The notes under the pieces: generated by a model
Database searches by the model: none
What the model saw: only the letters and a program-made list of their open reading frames with translations
What the model was told of the DNA's origin: nothing
Shown here: one piece after another, positions 34,943 through 44,765 of the stretch
How positions within the stretch are numbered: position 1 is the first letter of the stretch
Layout: each line of letters begins with the position of its first letter
From: Deferribacteraceae bacterium
GTDB lineage: Bacteria; Chrysiogenota; Deferribacteres; Deferribacterales; JAISNW01
Direction: 5' to 3'
Assembly: GCA_031256375.1 (NCBI GenBank)
Contig: JAIRQX010000003.1
Location: 1 to 44,765 of the forward strand
Length of the DNA stretch: 44,765 nt
Position numbers and translations under genes: made by a program

Positions 34943-35698
34943 ATGCGGGTAGAAATAGCGCTTAGTTGGGACAGTAATATTGATAAGGTCACATCAAATT
35001 ACCGTATGGCTTTAGCATCGTTGATTAAAGAGGCTTTTAACAAATCATCGGAAAAATTCAAGGTTTCGTTGTACGATTCAGGACACAGATACAAACCGTT
35101 TACATTTTCAATACATTTTCCGTTAAACAGAGAAAAAAACGAAAAAAATTTCATATATCTGTCAGGCAATAAGGCTATACTGACATTTTCCTCCCCGGAT
35201 TATGAATATATTATGAATTTCTGTAACGGTATTCAAAAAATAAGGCAATATAATATGGGTTTTCCTGTGTATATAGGGCAAACTATGCTTTTACCCAACG
35301 AAACCGTTATGGAAAACAAAAGGGTTTGGCATACGGACGCCGCGGTTTTTCATATGTACGATGATGAAGGCAAGCGTTCAGGGTATGCCAAAGAGGGAGA
35401 GTATGGTTTTAATGCGGCTGTAATGAGACATATACAAGCCAAGGTCAGAAAAGCGTTTCCAGATATGGCTGAGGAAGATATCAACACGATCTCAATTCAA
35501 TGGATATGGGCTAAAAATATTGCGGTATCACATTATAACAGCCTTGTTTCATGCGTTGAGGGAGTCTTTTGCCTGACGGCGCCTTCAGAGGCGCAGCAAC
35601 TCTTTTATGACACAGGTCTAGGAGCCAGAAATTCTCAGGGGTTTGGAATGTTGTTTTGTGGAGAACACAGAACGCTCCCTAATGGCGGTGTTAAATGA
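34943..35698 (+). CDS. cas6: CRISPR endoribonuclease Cas6
   Basis: A 251-residue Cas6, which cuts the CRISPR transcript within each repeat to release crRNAs. The C-terminal glycine-rich loop GLGARNSQGFG (225-234) is the family hallmark; the N-terminal half has the expected ferredoxin-like pattern (FTFSIHFPL, YIGQTMLLPN). It opens the cas operon with GAGG upstream, and its stop overlaps cas8b as ATGA. Confidence 0.92.
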   Translation: MRVEIALSWDSNIDKVTSNYRMALASLIKEAFNKSSEKFKVSLYDSGHRYKPFTFSIHFPLNREKNEKNFIYLSGNKAILTFSSPDYEYIMNFCNGIQKIRQYNMGFPVYIGQTMLLPNETVMENKRVWHTDAAVFHMYDDEGKRSGYAKEGEYGFNAAVMRHIQAKVRKAFPDMAEEDINTISIQWIWAKNIAVSHYNSLVSCVEGVFCLTAPSEAQQLFYDTGLGARNSQGFGMLFCGEHRTLPNGGVK

Positions 35699-37242
35699 GC
35701 GAAATCAAAGTATATCTGAAAGACTGGAGCTTTAACGCCGGCGTAGTGGGATTTATGAGCATATTCGGAAATACTGTTGAGGATATTAAAGGTGCAGGCA
35801 TAAATGTTGAAAGTAATTATATAACTTTTGATAAATCGTTGCTGGATGGTTTCGGGGAGAGATATAGAGAACATCTGATAAGGTATTTTTTGACTGATAA
35901 TCTTCTGGACAAGCAGATTAAGTTGCTGGAAGATGAGGAATCTGTAAAGAAACTAAAGAAACAGGATTGGGAAAAATCTGATTTTAAAGTTTTTTATAAA
36001 ATATTTGAAAATGTGAATATAAAAAGTCTTGATGAGTTAAAATCAAATGGCAAAAGCGCATCGGAAGCTATACGAAAGGCTAAAAATGATAAATATTTTG
36101 AAAATGCACAGGAATCTGACGAACTCCTGACAAGCAGATTTATAAATTACGGTGGCAGAAACGCGGTACAAATAGCCGGAGTTAATGATATAATTCAAGC
36201 TATCAATAAGTGCGTTGAATATTTGAACACAGAAAACAGTAATCCAAGTAAAAACTCATGCTCAATGTGTGGCAATAAAGATGCACAAAAGAAATATATG
36301 TCCTCAGTAAACACAATGGGCGGTTATGGAGGTAGTTCTATATCATGGTTTTATAAGGATATTTATATTTGTTCTGTATGTGAAATAGTGTATAGATGTA
36401 TGTTGTCAGCTCTTTCAAAAGCGGCTAACAGCATTTATTATTTTGCCAATATCAACACGTCGGTTAAAAATCTTTTTGAATGCAACATGAATCTAAAAAC
36501 TGTTGAGATAGGTGCAAATGCGCTATTGAGTTACATTGAGCGTATCAAAAAGTTAGCGGAGCTAGATATTGAACGGCGTAATTTTAACTCCTTTCAGTTT
36601 ATCAAAACAGAACAAAATGGACTGATAGGTAAACCCGGTTACAACCTTTATCAATATCACATCACACAGGAACTTATGAGATTTTTTTCGGAATATCCGC
36701 CTCCGTCAGGTTCATATGCCCATGATCAGGGCACATGGATATACATTTACGAATCATGGCTTGAAAAAGCTCTTGTAGGCACACTTGGCTGGGCGGACGC
36801 GGCGACGCTTTTTAACGCGGGGATAAACAAAAAAACAAGCGTACTGTTGTTTTACGCTGTAATATATATATCAGCATATCGCAAAATAACTGGAGGTAAT
36901 ATGGATGTAAAAAAAGAAACCAATGTCATCGGATGGGGCGGAAAATGCGGTTCTGATTTAAAAATCAGACTGGAGACGGGAAAAGCTGAAGGGCTTGCTT
37001 ATGCTTTACTCGGAGCGTTAAAAACTGAAAATATGAACGAGTTTTTGAACAGCTATATGCGCGCAATGATGAGTTATGATCTTCCGCCGACCTTTCCTAC
37101 GGAACTGCTGGAGGATAAAGAGAGGTTTATCCAATTCGGATATGCTTTTCTGGCTGGATTATTGCAGGGGGACAGAAAAAATGATGATAAAAAAGGGACC
37201 GATAACAATTCAAATGCAACAAAGGAGATAGCAAATGGCTAA
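35695..37242 (+). CDS. cas8b: Type I-B Cascade large subunit Cas8b (Cst1-like, CXXC-CXXC)
   Basis: A 515-residue large subunit with zinc-finger-like pairs CSMC (Cys189, Cys192) and CSVC (Cys226, Cys229), the hallmark of the CXXC_CXXC Cst1/Cas8 family found in type I-B (Tneap-like) systems. It is expected to recognise the PAM and hold Cascade on target. The N-terminal LKDWSFNAGVVGFM segment is typical. Position between cas6 and cas7, with ATGA and 8-bp overlaps, supports the call; sequence in this family is variable, so the subtype label is less sure than the role. Confidence 0.82.
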   Translation: MSEIKVYLKDWSFNAGVVGFMSIFGNTVEDIKGAGINVESNYITFDKSLLDGFGERYREHLIRYFLTDNLLDKQIKLLEDEESVKKLKKQDWEKSDFKVFYKIFENVNIKSLDELKSNGKSASEAIRKAKNDKYFENAQESDELLTSRFINYGGRNAVQIAGVNDIIQAINKCVEYLNTENSNPSKNSCSMCGNKDAQKKYMSSVNTMGGYGGSSISWFYKDIYICSVCEIVYRCMLSALSKAANSIYYFANINTSVKNLFECNMNLKTVEIGANALLSYIERIKKLAELDIERRNFNSFQFIKTEQNGLIGKPGYNLYQYHITQELMRFFSEYPPPSGSYAHDQGTWIYIYESWLEKALVGTLGWADAATLFNAGINKKTSVLLFYAVIYISAYRKITGGNMDVKKETNVIGWGGKCGSDLKIRLETGKAEGLAYALLGALKTENMNEFLNSYMRAMMSYDLPPTFPTELLEDKERFIQFGYAFLAGLLQGDRKNDDKKGTDNNSNATKEIANG

Positions 37243-38179
37243 ACATCTTACATTCACAATACTTTTTCAGGGGCGTAACCTTAATTACGGAGAAAGTGTC
37301 GGCACCGTAGGCACATTAAAAAAACATTACAGGGACGGCAGGGTTCATTCGTATCTTAGCCGTCAGGCGTTGCGATATAGTCTTATTGAGATATTAGCGT
37401 CTTGGGATAAAAAATGGAAAACAAAAGTTGAGGGTGAAGGAAAAACTCTCCAATACTCTTACTCCGCTACAATAAAGGATAATCCAGAATTGGACCTGTT
37501 TGGATATATGAAAACAAAGAGCAGTAAAGATAAAAAGAAAGAGGGGGAGGATTCAAAGGAGAAAACCATGCTCCGCCCCGCTCCTGTGCGTATAAGCGAT
37601 GCCACATCATTAGAGGCTTGGAACTCTGAAACAGCGTTTAACAACAATATGGGGCTTATGCGCAGAACCGGAAGCGACTCTTTGGGGCTGATTCCATACC
37701 AATATGAATCGCATATGTCATGGTACACCTACACCGTAACAATAGATTTGGAAAATATCGGCAAAAACGAGAACTCCGAAGAGGTTGTTATTGACGAAAA
37801 AGAGAGATTTAAACGTATTAGTACACTTCTGGACGGGATAAAATGTCTTTACAGAGATATACGCGGCCGCAGGGAAGACTTAAGCCCGATTTTTATAATA
37901 GGGGGCGTGACCGGCACAGGCAACCCAATATTTTACAACTTATTAAAGGTTGATTATAAAAATAACGCCGATACTCTTAATGTGGAAACGATTAAAAGCC
38001 GCATGAACATTACAGCGCCACCGGAAAATAAACCTATTAGGGATGAAATCCGCGTTGGGTTTACAAGCGGCATATTCGGCAACGAAGGCGATATCAAGAA
38101 TCTGCCGAATGCAACAACTGTAGAGGAGTTTTTTAACGCTATAAAACAGGATATAAGCAAAGTTTACGGAGTTGCATAA
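37235..38179 (+). CDS. cas7: Cascade backbone Cas7 (Cst2/DevR family)
   Basis: A 314-residue Cas7 of the Cst2/DevR group that polymerises along the crRNA. Landmarks: FTILFQGRNLNYGES at the N-terminus, RVHSYLSRQALRYSL, RPAPVRISDATSLEAW, and a C-terminal GFTSGIFGNEGDI. A charged insertion (residues about 85-110) is rich in Lys and Glu. AAGGAG precedes ATG 37235, and its TAA overlaps the cas5 start as TAATG. Confidence 0.92.
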   Translation: MAKHLTFTILFQGRNLNYGESVGTVGTLKKHYRDGRVHSYLSRQALRYSLIEILASWDKKWKTKVEGEGKTLQYSYSATIKDNPELDLFGYMKTKSSKDKKKEGEDSKEKTMLRPAPVRISDATSLEAWNSETAFNNNMGLMRRTGSDSLGLIPYQYESHMSWYTYTVTIDLENIGKNENSEEVVIDEKERFKRISTLLDGIKCLYRDIRGRREDLSPIFIIGGVTGTGNPIFYNLLKVDYKNNADTLNVETIKSRMNITAPPENKPIRDEIRVGFTSGIFGNEGDIKNLPNATTVEEFFNAIKQDISKVYGVA

Positions 38180-38886
38180 TGAAAGCTCTGCGTGTGGAGC
38201 TTTATCAGGATCATGTATGCTGGCGGCAGGAGACCGGATACCGTTTTTTTCAAACTTATCCCCTCCCCACCCCATCTATGGTGCGCGGGCTTGTGCATAA
38301 ACTGATGGGGGTTAAACCGGGCGGCAACCGGTATATCCCACTTAAGATAAGCATTCAGGGTAGGTATGACTCCATATTTGTTGATATGCAGCGTTGGGAT
38401 ATGGAGACAAAAAAGCGAAACGGCGCGTCTAACGCAGATTCGCATACGCTTATGTTCTGGGAAGAGCTTGCCAATGTTTGCCTCACTCTGCATATAGCAT
38501 TTAAAAATGATAACGAAACCAACCTTATAAAGTTAAAAGAGGGGTTTATAGGAAACACTGTAGTATTAGGCAGAAATGAAGATATTACCAGAATTGACAG
38601 CATTGATATTGTAGAGCTTGTAACGCCTTCAAACAAACTTTCACCTAAATATCCGATGTTTATGCCTAAAAATGAAGATAATGAAGGATACCCCGTGTTT
38701 CATTTGCCATTTGCGTACAGTATTATAGGCTCTCAGCGGATATTTAAGTATATTGACGCCTGCCTAATTAACGCTGGATCTCAGATAAAATCAAAATATT
38801 GCTTAGTGGCATGTAATTACCCCGAACACCCTGTATGTTTTTTGGAGCTAAACGATGACGATGAAAAAGATATTAGCGAAAAGTGA
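38179..38886 (+). CDS. cas5: Cascade subunit Cas5 (I-B/Cas5t-like)
   Basis: A 235-residue Cas5 that caps the 5' handle of the crRNA. The N-terminal LRVELYQDHVCWRQETGYRFFQTYPLPTPSMVRGLVHKLMG matches the Cas5 RAMP start (substrate-binding Gly and PTPS motif). Start overlaps the cas7 stop (TAATG); end overlaps cas3 by 32 bp. Confidence 0.92.
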   Translation: MKALRVELYQDHVCWRQETGYRFFQTYPLPTPSMVRGLVHKLMGVKPGGNRYIPLKISIQGRYDSIFVDMQRWDMETKKRNGASNADSHTLMFWEELANVCLTLHIAFKNDNETNLIKLKEGFIGNTVVLGRNEDITRIDSIDIVELVTPSNKLSPKYPMFMPKNEDNEGYPVFHLPFAYSIIGSQRIFKYIDACLINAGSQIKSKYCLVACNYPEHPVCFLELNDDDEKDISEK

Positions 38887-41122
38887 CGGAACCACTCTGG
38901 AAGAACACACAAACGCTCTGATAGCCTGTTATGATAATTGGTTAGTGCAAATACAAAAAATAAACCCTTTGCTATACGATAAAATAGCGGACTGGCGCTC
39001 TTTTGTAAGAGATATGCTGTTTTTTCACGATCAGGGGAAAAGAGTTGCGCCTTTTCAACAAAATTTGTCAGACAAGTCAAAACAACCCGTGTGGCACGAG
39101 CTATTGTCTTTAGCGTTTATATCGGAAGAAAAAGAAGATTCATGGGGTGATTGCGCCAAGTATATACTCAACGCCATTGCCAACCATCATAAGAGAGACA
39201 GGGGAAATCCGGAAATACGGAAATTGCATATTGAATATCTAAAAGATATTTATGACGACTATAAAAATAATAAGCCAACAGACTGGGACTGGCTAAAAAG
39301 CAATGGTTGGGATGAGTGTATTGAAAAAACGGTAAATTGTATATTTTATGATACAGACTTTTTCGGTAAGAGTAACTTTGATCCTTTTAAGCACAATTTT
39401 TTTAAAGGTATGCTGCATAAGTGCGATTACGCTGCATCTGCCGGACTGAAAAATATGGAAACTATTTACAGCGGCAATTATAATTTAGCTTTTCAGAACT
39501 ATATGTCATATAAACCCCTTTCCCCGCTGCAAGAAAAATCGGGAGAACTGTCAGAAAAAAGCGTAATACTTATTGCTCCTACAGGTAGTGGCAAAACAGA
39601 GCTTTCCATGAACTGGGTACGCAAAAACGGAAGCTGCAAAGTGTTTTATCTGCTGGGAATGCGCACGGCGGTTCAAAAGATGTATGAGCGTTGGAAAGAT
39701 TGTTTTGGAGACAGCAATGTAAAACTGCTTCATGGTGAAATTGCCTATTATATGATTGGTGAGGAGATGGGAAACGAACAATACAATAATCTCCATGATA
39801 AGCTAACTATGGTTAAACAACTGTCTATGCCTATTACCATAGCCACTGCGGATCAGATTATTACATCCACGCTGAAATATCACTCGTTTGAAACGGTATA
39901 TCTCACGTGCGCCTACAGTCAGATAATAGTTGACGAAATACAGAGCTTTGACCCGCAAGCGATGGCAATTATAGTATATTTCTTAAAGGAGATACACAAC
40001 CTTGGAGGCGGGTTTTTGCTTATGACCGCCACGCTGCCTCCGTTTATAAAAAAAGAGTTGTCAAAATTAAACAATGTTGAATTACTTGATCCTCTGGGGT
40101 ATGAATCACACCCAAAATCACTCAATATGGACCTAAAACGACACAGATTTAACTGGCTTGAAAACAGTTATATAAACAGCAATAAAACTATTGCGCATAT
40201 TATGGACTCTTTTAAGGAAGGCAAAAGCGTATTGGCAATCTGCAATACTGTCGCTATAGCGCAGGATGTTACACAAAAATTGAGCAAAAGCGGCGTAGAG
40301 GTTAATCTTTTGCACGCGCGGTTTATCCGCAAAGACAGAAATGATAAAGAGGAGCAAATAACAAAAGACGCGCCGTCCGACAGAGAAAAGAGCAAGCCTG
40401 TAATATGGGTATCCACACAGATAGTGGAAGCAAGCCTTGATATAGATTTTGATGAAATGCACACAGAGATATGCACTGTGGACAGCCTTCTGCAACGGTT
40501 CGGCAGATGTTACCGCAAGCGTGAATATGGCGGAAATGTGCCGAATATCTTTATTTATGATTATGACAAAGACGGTAATCCAAAAAACTATACAGAATTG
40601 GTTTATGACAAAGAATTGCTTGAGTTCACTAAAAAACATATAGCTGAATATGATGACAGATTACTTACTGAAAAAGATAAATATATATTTTTTAACGATG
40701 TTTTTTCAGAACTCACGGACACAAGCGAGTACAAAAAAAAGTACAACAATATGCTGACGTTGCTCAAAAACAGTTACAGAGCGGAAACTCGTAAAGAAGC
40801 ACAGGATTTGTTCAGACAGAGCGGAATGCTCAACTTTAGTATTGTGCCGTTTGAGCTCCAGCCGGAAGTGGATGGACTTTTAGAAAACTGGGCAAATTCA
40901 AGCGGTAAAGAGCGCGTCGCTACACAGGCGGATATTATGCAATATACTGTCAGCGCGGCAGTTAAACGCAATGATATAGCAAAGCTACGCTCTCTTGAAA
41001 AAGATTATCCGAACAGTAAATTTGCTGCAAATCTGTATTACGCGCCGGAAACGCTTTACAAATATGACAATATTACAGGATTACAATATATAAAAGGTGA
41101 TGAACCTATAATTTTAGATTAA
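38855..41122 (+). CDS. cas3: Cas3 HD nuclease-helicase
   Basis: A 755-residue fused HD nuclease and superfamily 2 helicase that unwinds and degrades DNA bound by Cascade. HD ligands: His18, His58-Asp59 (FFHDQGKR), His81 and His111-His112. Helicase: Walker A APTGSGKT at 241-248, DEIQ box at 360-363 (instead of DEVH), MTATLP (motif III) and LLQRFGRCYRK (motif VI). Start at ATG 38855 (GGAG 12 bp upstream) overlaps cas5 by 32 bp. Confidence 0.95.
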   Translation: MTMKKILAKSDGTTLEEHTNALIACYDNWLVQIQKINPLLYDKIADWRSFVRDMLFFHDQGKRVAPFQQNLSDKSKQPVWHELLSLAFISEEKEDSWGDCAKYILNAIANHHKRDRGNPEIRKLHIEYLKDIYDDYKNNKPTDWDWLKSNGWDECIEKTVNCIFYDTDFFGKSNFDPFKHNFFKGMLHKCDYAASAGLKNMETIYSGNYNLAFQNYMSYKPLSPLQEKSGELSEKSVILIAPTGSGKTELSMNWVRKNGSCKVFYLLGMRTAVQKMYERWKDCFGDSNVKLLHGEIAYYMIGEEMGNEQYNNLHDKLTMVKQLSMPITIATADQIITSTLKYHSFETVYLTCAYSQIIVDEIQSFDPQAMAIIVYFLKEIHNLGGGFLLMTATLPPFIKKELSKLNNVELLDPLGYESHPKSLNMDLKRHRFNWLENSYINSNKTIAHIMDSFKEGKSVLAICNTVAIAQDVTQKLSKSGVEVNLLHARFIRKDRNDKEEQITKDAPSDREKSKPVIWVSTQIVEASLDIDFDEMHTEICTVDSLLQRFGRCYRKREYGGNVPNIFIYDYDKDGNPKNYTELVYDKELLEFTKKHIAEYDDRLLTEKDKYIFFNDVFSELTDTSEYKKKYNNMLTLLKNSYRAETRKEAQDLFRQSGMLNFSIVPFELQPEVDGLLENWANSSGKERVATQADIMQYTVSAAVKRNDIAKLRSLEKDYPNSKFAANLYYAPETLYKYDNITGLQYIKGDEPIILD

Positions 41123-41125
41123 CAA

Positions 41126-41617
41126 ATGATTACGGGCTCAGAATTTGCATATTATTATCTTTGTGCGCGCAAACTTTGGCTGTTTTCCCATGCCATACAC
41201 ATGGAGCATGAAAGCGACAGAGTTGCAGAAGGGCGGTTGCTGCACGAAACAAGCTACTCAAGGGAAAAGAAAGAGATAGATATGTTTGGCTGCGTGATAG
41301 ATCATTTTGATAATAAAAATAACATTATCCATGAGGTTAAACTATCCCCCGCCGTCAGTGATGTTCACATTAAACAGTTGCAGTATTATATTTACCGCTT
41401 TAAGCATGAAGCGGATCTGTTATGCACGGGGATGATAGACTACCCAAAGTTAAAACGAAAACAGCCGGTGACATTAAGCGATGCAGATGAAGAACAGATA
41501 GAAACGGATTTAGCGGAGATTATGAAGATAAAAACACAAGCATCACCACCTCCTAGCCCTGAAATTATGAATAATATATGCAAGTCCTGCGCCTACGCGG
41601 CATACTGTTTCGCGTAA
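41126..41617 (+). CDS. cas4: Cas4 Fe-S exonuclease
   Basis: A 163-residue RecB-like nuclease involved in PAM selection and trimming of prespacers. Four Cys (Cys13, Cys152, Cys155, Cys161) are placed to hold a 4Fe-4S cluster; GRLLHE and EVKLSP provide the RecB-type catalytic residues. It lies 3 bp after cas3 and 4 bp before cas1, the usual adaptation-module layout. Confidence 0.93.
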   Translation: MITGSEFAYYYLCARKLWLFSHAIHMEHESDRVAEGRLLHETSYSREKKEIDMFGCVIDHFDNKNNIIHEVKLSPAVSDVHIKQLQYYIYRFKHEADLLCTGMIDYPKLKRKQPVTLSDADEEQIETDLAEIMKIKTQASPPPSPEIMNNICKSCAYAAYCFA

Positions 41618-41621
41618 TAAT

Positions 41622-42662
41622 ATGCGTTCATATTATATTTTAAGGTCAGGCAGACTGAGTCAGAAAGACAAATCTCTGTTGTTTTCCAGCGGTTACGATG
41701 TGGAACATACGCTTTTTGAAGATTTAACGGAAGATGAGCAGAAAAATGTGGTTCAAAAAAGTTGGCTGCCTGTGGAAGAGGTTGACAGTATTTATTTTTT
41801 CGGGGAGACCGATACAAACTCCAGAGCGTTGGGACTTCTTGGAAGCCATGGGATATGCGCACATTACTTTAACTATTATGGGTGGTACACAGGCTCTTTT
41901 GTGCCGCGCAAAAGCCTTATTTCAGGCGAAACAACGGTACGTCAGAGCGAACATTATTTAAACGAAGAAAAGCGAATGGTTTTGGCAAGGGAGTTTGTAT
42001 CAGGTTCAATATATTCCATGAGAGAGGTTTTGCGCCCGCACTCAGAAAAAAATGCCCAGATAAAAACAATTATGGACGAAATAAAAGGACTGCAAAAAGA
42101 ATTGATAAAACAGGCAAATATTCCCGCTGTTATGGGAATAGAGGGCAATACCAAGATTAAATATTATATGGCAATAAAGCAAATAATACCCGACGAATTT
42201 GAGTTTGAAAAACGGGTAAAACATCCGCCGGATAATGCTGTGAATGCGCTAATCTCATTCGTAAACAGCCTTGTGTACACTGCTATACTGAAAGAACTTT
42301 ATTCAACGCCGCTTCATCCGTCAGTGGGTTTCCTGCATGAACCTTTTGAGCGGCGCTATACGCTGGTTCTGGATATTTCAGAAATATTTAAGCCGTTGAT
42401 AGGGGATAAAATAATTCTGGAACTGCTGAATAACAAAAGACTGCGTCTTTCCCACTTTGATAAAGACCTGAACTATTGCTATCTTAACGATTCCGGCAGA
42501 AAGGTAGTGGTATCGGCATTTGACGAAAAGGTTAAATCCACAATAAAACATAAAAAACTCAAAAAAATGTTGTCATGGAAGCAAATGATACGGATGGAAT
42601 TGTACAAAATAATGAAACATATAACTAAGGATGAGCAATACAATCATTTCAGGCTGAAATAA
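41622..42662 (+). CDS. cas1: CRISPR integrase Cas1
   Basis: A 346-residue Cas1 of the type I-B kind. Metal ligands Glu174 (MGIEGNTK), His239 (HPSVGFLHEP) and Glu254 (LDISEIFKP) are all present. The N-terminal beta domain has IYFFGETDTNSRALGLLGSHGI and FNYYGWYTGSF. With Cas2 it inserts spacers at the leader end of the array. Confidence 0.97.
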   Translation: MRSYYILRSGRLSQKDKSLLFSSGYDVEHTLFEDLTEDEQKNVVQKSWLPVEEVDSIYFFGETDTNSRALGLLGSHGICAHYFNYYGWYTGSFVPRKSLISGETTVRQSEHYLNEEKRMVLAREFVSGSIYSMREVLRPHSEKNAQIKTIMDEIKGLQKELIKQANIPAVMGIEGNTKIKYYMAIKQIIPDEFEFEKRVKHPPDNAVNALISFVNSLVYTAILKELYSTPLHPSVGFLHEPFERRYTLVLDISEIFKPLIGDKIILELLNNKRLRLSHFDKDLNYCYLNDSGRKVVVSAFDEKVKSTIKHKKLKKMLSWKQMIRMELYKIMKHITKDEQYNHFRLK

Positions 42663-42943
42663 TGTATTTGATAGCAATGTATGATATTACACTTAATGAA
42701 AGCGGACAGCGCAGATTATCAAGAATTCTAAAACTATTCCGGCAATATTTGCACCATACACAAAAATCTGTGTTTGAAGGTGAAATATCTGTCGCAAAAT
42801 TTAGCGAATTAAAATACAAAACAACGCAAATAATAGATAAAAATGCTGATTATATACTGTTTTTTACCGTTCCTAATAGAAAAAATATCACAAAAGAATG
42901 TTTAGGAGTAGATTTTGACGCTACCGCAAATATACTTGATTAG
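42662..42943 (+). CDS. cas2: Cas2
   Basis: A 93-residue Cas2 with the ferredoxin-like start MYLIAMYDIT (Asp8) and conserved RRLSRILK and KSVFEGEIS strands. It is the structural partner of Cas1. Its ATG overlaps the cas1 stop (TAATG). It is the last cas gene; the array starts 189 bp further on. Confidence 0.96.
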   Translation: MYLIAMYDITLNESGQRRLSRILKLFRQYLHHTQKSVFEGEISVAKFSELKYKTTQIIDKNADYILFFTVPNRKNITKECLGVDFDATANILD

Positions 42944-43132
42944 ATGTTTGAAAATTGTATATTGAAAAGTGATATTTGTTATAACACTATGTTGCAATCA
43001 AAACTTATCCCTATTGCGATATGGTAAAAAGCGTATAAAATCAAGTTGCTGTATATTACACTATCGGAGGTTTGGGAAAATTTTAAAATCTTTATTAAAA
43101 ATACTCAGTAATTATTAGTGACTTACTATCGG
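42944..43132 (+). promoter_or_regulatory. AT-rich region between cas2 and array, probable CRISPR leader
   Basis: No gene is seen. The 189 bp are AT-rich, with a palindrome-like TTATAA near 42979 and a good -10-like TATAAA at 43034-43039. It borders the first repeat and lies next to the adaptation genes, so it is the natural leader candidate. However, the reverse complement of the repeat (GTTTATATCC...GGCTTAAAC) looks more like common I-B repeats, so the leader could instead lie beyond the right edge of the window. Confidence 0.5.
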
Positions 43133-44765
43133 GTTTAAGCCTCCAAATATGGGATATAAACCTTTGCCGCTGTGAGTTCACCCACACGCGCACCTGGTTT
43201 AAGCCTCCAAATATGGGATATAAACTAGAAAATATAATCGTTATATCGCAGTAGCGGCAGCGTTTAAGCCTCCAAATATGGGATATAAACGAAGCATAGC
43301 CTCGCGGATACGTTGTTCGTGGGTTGGTTTAAGCCTCCAAATATGGGATATAAACGAAACCGCATCAGTCACTACCTCAATTTCTACCCCGGTTTAAGCC
43401 TCCAAATATGGGATATAAACCTTCCGGGGATAGTTAATATTTTCGTATTGTTAAGAGTTTAAGCCTCCAAATATGGGATATAAACCGCCATATGAAGCCT
43501 CCAAATCCGCACACTGCTCACAGTTTAAGCCTCCAAATATGGGATATAAACTTTTATCTTGATGAGGTTCTACCGGGTGATACTTATGTTTAAGCCTCCA
43601 AATATGGGATATAAACTTTTATCTTGATGAGGTTCTGCCGGGCGATACATACGTTTAAGCCTCCAAATATGGGATATAAACTTATAATCTCACAACAACT
43701 GTCACAATGGAAAATGGGTTTAAGCCTCCAAATATGGGATATAAACCAGAAAGGTCCCGGCGAACAAGTCCCTCTTGGTGGAGTTTAAGCCTCCAAATAT
43801 GGGATATAAACATAAAAGGATTGCTAAAGACCAGATGAACTTCCAAGGTTTAAGCCTCCAAATATGGGATATAAACTTTGAGTTGTGCGCTAATATTGAA
43901 TGTGCGAACAAGGTTTAAGCCTCCAAATATGGGATATAAACCCATTTTCAAGTTTATACACATACTCAAACAGTGAGGTTTAAGCCTCCAAATATGGGAT
44001 ATAAACATCAAAATTCCCTTTATTGATTTTGTGATTTTCCGAGTTTAAGCCTCCAAATATGGGATATAAACTGCTATTACAGGCAGGGAAGAAGAAGCAA
44101 AAAAGGAGTTTAAGCCTCCAAATATGGGATATAAACCGTATAGGTTAGCCCCGCGTAGGTCAGCCCCGCATAGTTTAAGCCTCCAAATATGGGATATAAA
44201 CAAAAAATTTGAGTATGTGAAAGTCATACAACAAAATGATAAAGCCTCCAAATATGGGATATAAACTAGTAAAATAAAAAAAACAGCATAGAAAAGGAGT
44301 TAGTTTAAGCCTCCAAATATGGGATATAAACTGATTTAAAATAATCCGGGTTGTGTACAAATTACGAGTTTAAGCCTCCAAATATGGGATATAAACCAAT
44401 TTATACACAACCCGTGTAACTTTAAATTGAGGGTTTAAGCCTCCAAATATGGGATATAAACTTTACACGCCGTTAGTGACAGTGTGTTGTTCTCTATGTT
44501 TAAGCCTCCAAATATGGGATATAAACTAATAAAATAAAAAAAACAGCATTATAAGAAAGGGGTTTAAGCCTCCAAATATGGGATATAAACCTCGCAAGCA
44601 GCATCAATTAAGCCACCGTCACGACAAGTTTAAGCCTCCAAATATGGGATATAAACGTAATCAAGTAATAGCAATGGTTTGAGGGTGCAGTTGTTTAAGC
44701 CTCCAAATATGGGATATAAACATAAGTCTCCCGCGCTCCCCTCGTGTCCGCTGTATGGGTTTAAG
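43133..44765 (+). CRISPR. Type I-B CRISPR array, at least 25 full repeats, open at right edge
   Basis: The repeat is 29 bp, starting GTTTAAGCCTCC and ending GGGATATAAAC with 5-bp inverted ends. Full repeats start at 43133, 43197, 43262, 43327, 43392, 43457, 43523, 43588, 43653, 43718, 43783, 43848, 43913, 43978, 44043, 44108, 44173, 44238 (degenerate), 44303, 44368, 44433, 44498, 44562, 44628 and 44693; a 26th begins at 44759. Spacers are 35-37 bp. Several appear to target Microviridae-like phages (see findings). All repeats but the 18th (GATAAAG in place of GTTTAAG) look identical. Open frames on the minus strand across the array are repeat translations and not genes. Confidence 0.99.

Follow-up and report, generated by a model that had tools for sequence, protein, structure and literature searches.

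The CRISPR array at the end of this contig is best explained, at a probability of roughly nine in ten, by repeated acquisition of spacers from gokushoviruses by a type I-B system, with the adjacent spacers 7 and 8 representing one site in VP1 as carried by two phages. The two spacers (43552–43587 and 43617–43652, forward strand, 36 nt each) are flanked by identical 29-nt repeats and differ at positions 21 (A/G), 27 (T/C), 33 (T/A) and 36 (T/C). All four are synonymous third codon positions, and both spacers read FYLDEVLPGDTY. These coordinates, differences and the common peptide had been given in the initial annotation and were exact on re-reading the array. The similarity of the pair (27.5) was about twice the maximum reached in 60 shuffled arrays (13.5), and in the host genome the DNA motif occurred in the two spacers only.

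The array and its type I-B operon

The window, by which we mean the whole 44,765-nt stretch analysed, carries on its forward strand a CRISPR array (43133–44765) of 25 repeats of GTTTAAGCCTCCAAATATGGGATATAAAC, each of 29 nt, with spacers of 35–37 nt; the array is cut off by the contig end, and its repeat has no other occurrence in the 1.95 Mb host assembly. Upstream on the same strand lie cas6 (34943–35698), cas8b (35695–37242; PADLOC Cas8b, 3.7e-52), cas7 of the Cst2/DevR kind (37235–38179; TIGR02585, 4.8e-58), cas5b (38179–38886), cas3 with HD and helicase parts (38855–41122; TIGR01587 and TIGR01596), cas4 (41126–41617), cas1b (41622–42662; TIGR03641, 2.3e-116) and cas2 (42662–42943). The cas8b, cas7, cas5, cas3 and cas6 genes together with cas4-cas1-cas2 make a complete I-B set, and regular repeats and spacers adjoin it. 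The system is presumably active in interference.

The 189 bp that separate cas2 from the first repeat (42944–43132, forward strand) are 73% A+T and form a putative leader, judging by their position. If the leader is indeed this A+T-rich stretch on the cas2 side, as is likely, spacer 7 is younger than spacer 8, and 8 would have been acquired before 7. Two irregularities were seen within the array. Repeat 18 (44238–44266) is the sole variant repeat, with GATAAAGCC in place of GTTTAAGCC, and stands in the array interior, not at the visible end; spacer 6 (43486–43522) holds AAGCCTCCAAAT, 12 nt identical to the repeat of its own array. The genes at 1–34276 of the window, which include an RseP-like M50 protease with PDZ domains and a YfiO/TPR protein, suggest a diderm bacterium; the host phylum is represented by 51 genomes only in the genome collection. 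The assembly contained no 16S gene, and the matches to Cas1 stayed under 60% identity.

Microvirus targets and a candidate PAM

The searches support the assignment of the spacer 7/8 peptide to an N-terminal segment of gokushovirus VP1, with the spacers in the sense direction. The initial annotation had noted a resemblance to a gokushovirus-like VP1 capsid segment, and the peptide does align to VP1 in the coding frame, with a score of 63 against microvirus proteins compared with a shuffled null maximum of 43–44. A blastn search, which the annotation had proposed as a check, matched spacers 1–12 to 160 of the 50,697 phage records in INPHARED; among the matches listed, all were to microvirus VP1 or major capsid genes on spacers 7/8 and not to unrelated genomes, and microviruses dominated the leading entries of the organism tally. 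The closest protospacers differed from the spacers at 4 of 36 bases, so that the true source phages are absent from the collections searched. Neither IMG/VR nor INPHARED contained an exact protospacer, which limits the naming of the source phage and not of the gene. The exact peptide was likewise not found in IMG/VR; a relaxed peptide pattern recovered 38 contigs there, nearly all microvirus-sized and carrying the motif within a VP1-like frame, and the pattern DEVLPGDTY recovered 15 more. A search of the host genome for a microvirus capsid gene with PF02305 (Pfam) gave no match, and the control was likewise silent.

Further spacers point to the same phage family. Spacer 10 (43747–43782, forward strand) encodes QKGPGEQVPLGG and scored 53 against the same null maximum of 43–44; homologues read LPWP followed by QKGPGVELPLG at this site, and we assign the spacer to VP1 (QKGPG..PLG). 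Spacer 11 (43812–43847, forward strand) probably derives from VP2, the DNA pilot protein (KRIAKDQMNFQ, before an MSNTxYQR motif), since its best amino acid and DNA matches both fall in frame on the VP2 motif, with a score that is not significant by itself (p 0.12–0.30). The chance of finding the three clear microvirus spacers within four slots was 0.03, and that of four within five slots, counting spacer 11, was 0.007; both the clustering and the microvirus share of the spacers are biased estimates, because only conserved sites are detectable at such distance. The remaining spacers matched no phage record, and none of them exceeded the null against microvirus proteins.

Two other pairs of siblings, both well above the null, occur on the forward strand. 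Spacers 18 (44267–44302) and 22 (44527–44561) are identical at 22 of their first 23 nt and probably represent one intergenic site in two related elements; a stop codon (TAG/TAA) stands at their start and a Shine-Dalgarno-like run at their end. Spacers 19 (44332–44367) and 20 (44397–44432) overlap over 30 nt when one of them is reverse-complemented, with several mismatches in the overlap, as for one site read on opposite strands from two related elements. Pattern searches of IMG/VR for spacers 7/8, 10, 11, 18/22 and 19/20, as peptide or as consensus, returned nothing exact, and sources for 18/22 and 19/20 were not found in them. Repeated sampling of related elements thus appears to be a habit of this array.

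The initial annotation had placed a proline ahead of the VP1 segment, and had considered a CCN PAM plausible on that ground. A proline codon directly precedes the site in 52/52 strict-motif sites, with CCG, CCT, CCA and CCC all occurring, although the search pattern itself required the proline. Among unfiltered homologue sites, CCN stood before the spacer 7/8 site in all those listed, and the homologue flanks agree with the expectation. The spacer 10 site is a second VP1 site directly after a proline codon. As only 3–5% of VP1 sense positions follow CCN, two out of two is unlikely by chance; in homologues of spacer 11, CCN was not seen before the site. We regard CCN, read from homologues rather than from source phages, as a candidate PAM of this system. 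CCN is tabulated for type I-B (PMC8482600), and the Clostridioides difficile I-B system uses it for acquisition and, as a strong PAM, for interference, which occurs at YCN (PMC8406132). The present system resembles the latter in its type and, if the candidate PAM holds, in CCN lying 5' of the protospacer, and differs from it in host and repeat. A weak coding-strand preference has been reported for I-B (PMC8482600); sense sequence is found in spacers 7, 8 and 10, and in 11 as well if that assignment is real.

Origin of the synonymous pair

We propose that gokushovirus-type Microviridae were sampled by the type I-B system on several occasions. Spacers 7 and 8 would come from one CCN-flanked VP1 protospacer present in two phages that are related yet distinct and that differ at this site in synonymous positions only. 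Each crRNA, being VP1 sense, would leave the packaged plus strand itself unpaired; its target would be the complementary strand in the double-stranded replicative form, to which it would bring Cas3. Priming from microvirus spacers acquired earlier (8, 10 and 11) may have aided acquisition.

Sampling of the same capsid site from two diverged ssDNA phages had been the view of the initial annotation, and it is still the best reading. Within a set of 92 VP1 sequences, pairs sharing the same first 11 residues and having four mismatches at the site were 39–74% identical in VP1, which favours distinct phages; close VP1 pairs are rare in this set. The two spacers might instead be alleles of one phage species, for example if a variant of the phage behind spacer 8 came in later and spacer 7 was acquired by priming. 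We consider this possible but doubtful. It would fit the consecutive adjacent slots, the clustering with spacers 10 and 11, and the small number of changes, four compared with a mean of 10.4 between known gokushoviruses; the 39–74% identity of same-peptide, four-mismatch pairs argues against it, with the reservation that close pairs are under-sampled. The PAM-distal placement of the four changes lends it nothing special, as 17 of 78 natural four-change pairs are alike in this respect. The idea that this placement signals escape was rejected on the same count.

Array duplications are known, and spacers 7 and 8, adjacent and in identical register, could be taken for a duplicate that subsequently mutated. 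This is very improbable: none of the four changes alters the peptide in the phage frame, for which the probability is ∼0.002 under four random substitutions, the flanking repeats are identical, and duplication would not yield the other two sibling pairs, of which one differs at one end and one is on opposite strands. That the spacers, short as they are, resemble VP1 by chance or come from a cellular gene has a negligible probability, given that the phage-record matches listed are all microviruses, that the eight-residue core is exact, that spacer 10 maps independently to VP1 and that motif occurrences in GTDB are VP1-like frames and one other CRISPR array.

The VP1 site in another array and in other phages

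The GTDB-wide pattern scan returned 15 places, of which 14 were VP1-like frames and one was a CRISPR spacer in a Duodenibacillus MAG (CALXQK010000001.1; L067:1001–1090). Translated, this spacer gives FFVDEVLPGDT; the VP1 site is that of spacers 7 and 8, and one of its edges falls on the same codon as theirs. The host is unrelated, however, and in this array repeats are 28 nt and spacers 33 nt long (in size I-E-like). A neighbouring spacer in it, AGLNALYADF, also resembles a microvirus protein (p 0.03). In a phage set chosen by VP4, without the motif, the VP1 site ranked 4–10 in conservation among 292–554 CCN sites. It is highly conserved and not unique; a claim of first place in conservation among CCN protospacers was rejected as ascertainment bias, the site having that rank only in a motif-selected set.

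One might go further and regard the site as a codon-locked target in gokushoviruses to which CRISPR systems return again and again: different hosts would sample it repeatedly, and their arrays would stock synonymous variants. We think this unlikely; conserved sites are those that remote matching can find. If it were true, the conserved proline would supply the CCN PAM and the conserved peptide would restrict escape to synonymous changes.

That CRISPR systems target Microviridae is well established. Spacers of gut bacteria match gut Microviridae, of which 766 genomes are reported as targeted in the human gut (PMC8530359), and Chlorobium spacers also match microviruses (PMC8226683). In contrast to the gut data, two variants of one VP1 site here adjoin in one array. 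In pink berry Desulfofustis, two spacers address one conserved phage capsid site that varies among related phages (PMC10370329); those spacers are reverse complementary and directed at other phages, whereas spacers 7 and 8 share strand and register, differ synonymously and concern an ssDNA phage. Spacers 7 and 8 are thus a new, clear example of ordinary CRISPR biology. They show how translated conserved segments can reveal remote spacer matches where a nucleotide protospacer is absent, and offer a defined case in which to ask whether CRISPR systems prefer capsid codons that are conserved and PAM-locked. The spacers also tie gokushovirus infection to an uncultured bacterium, a useful link since the hosts of microviruses are poorly known.
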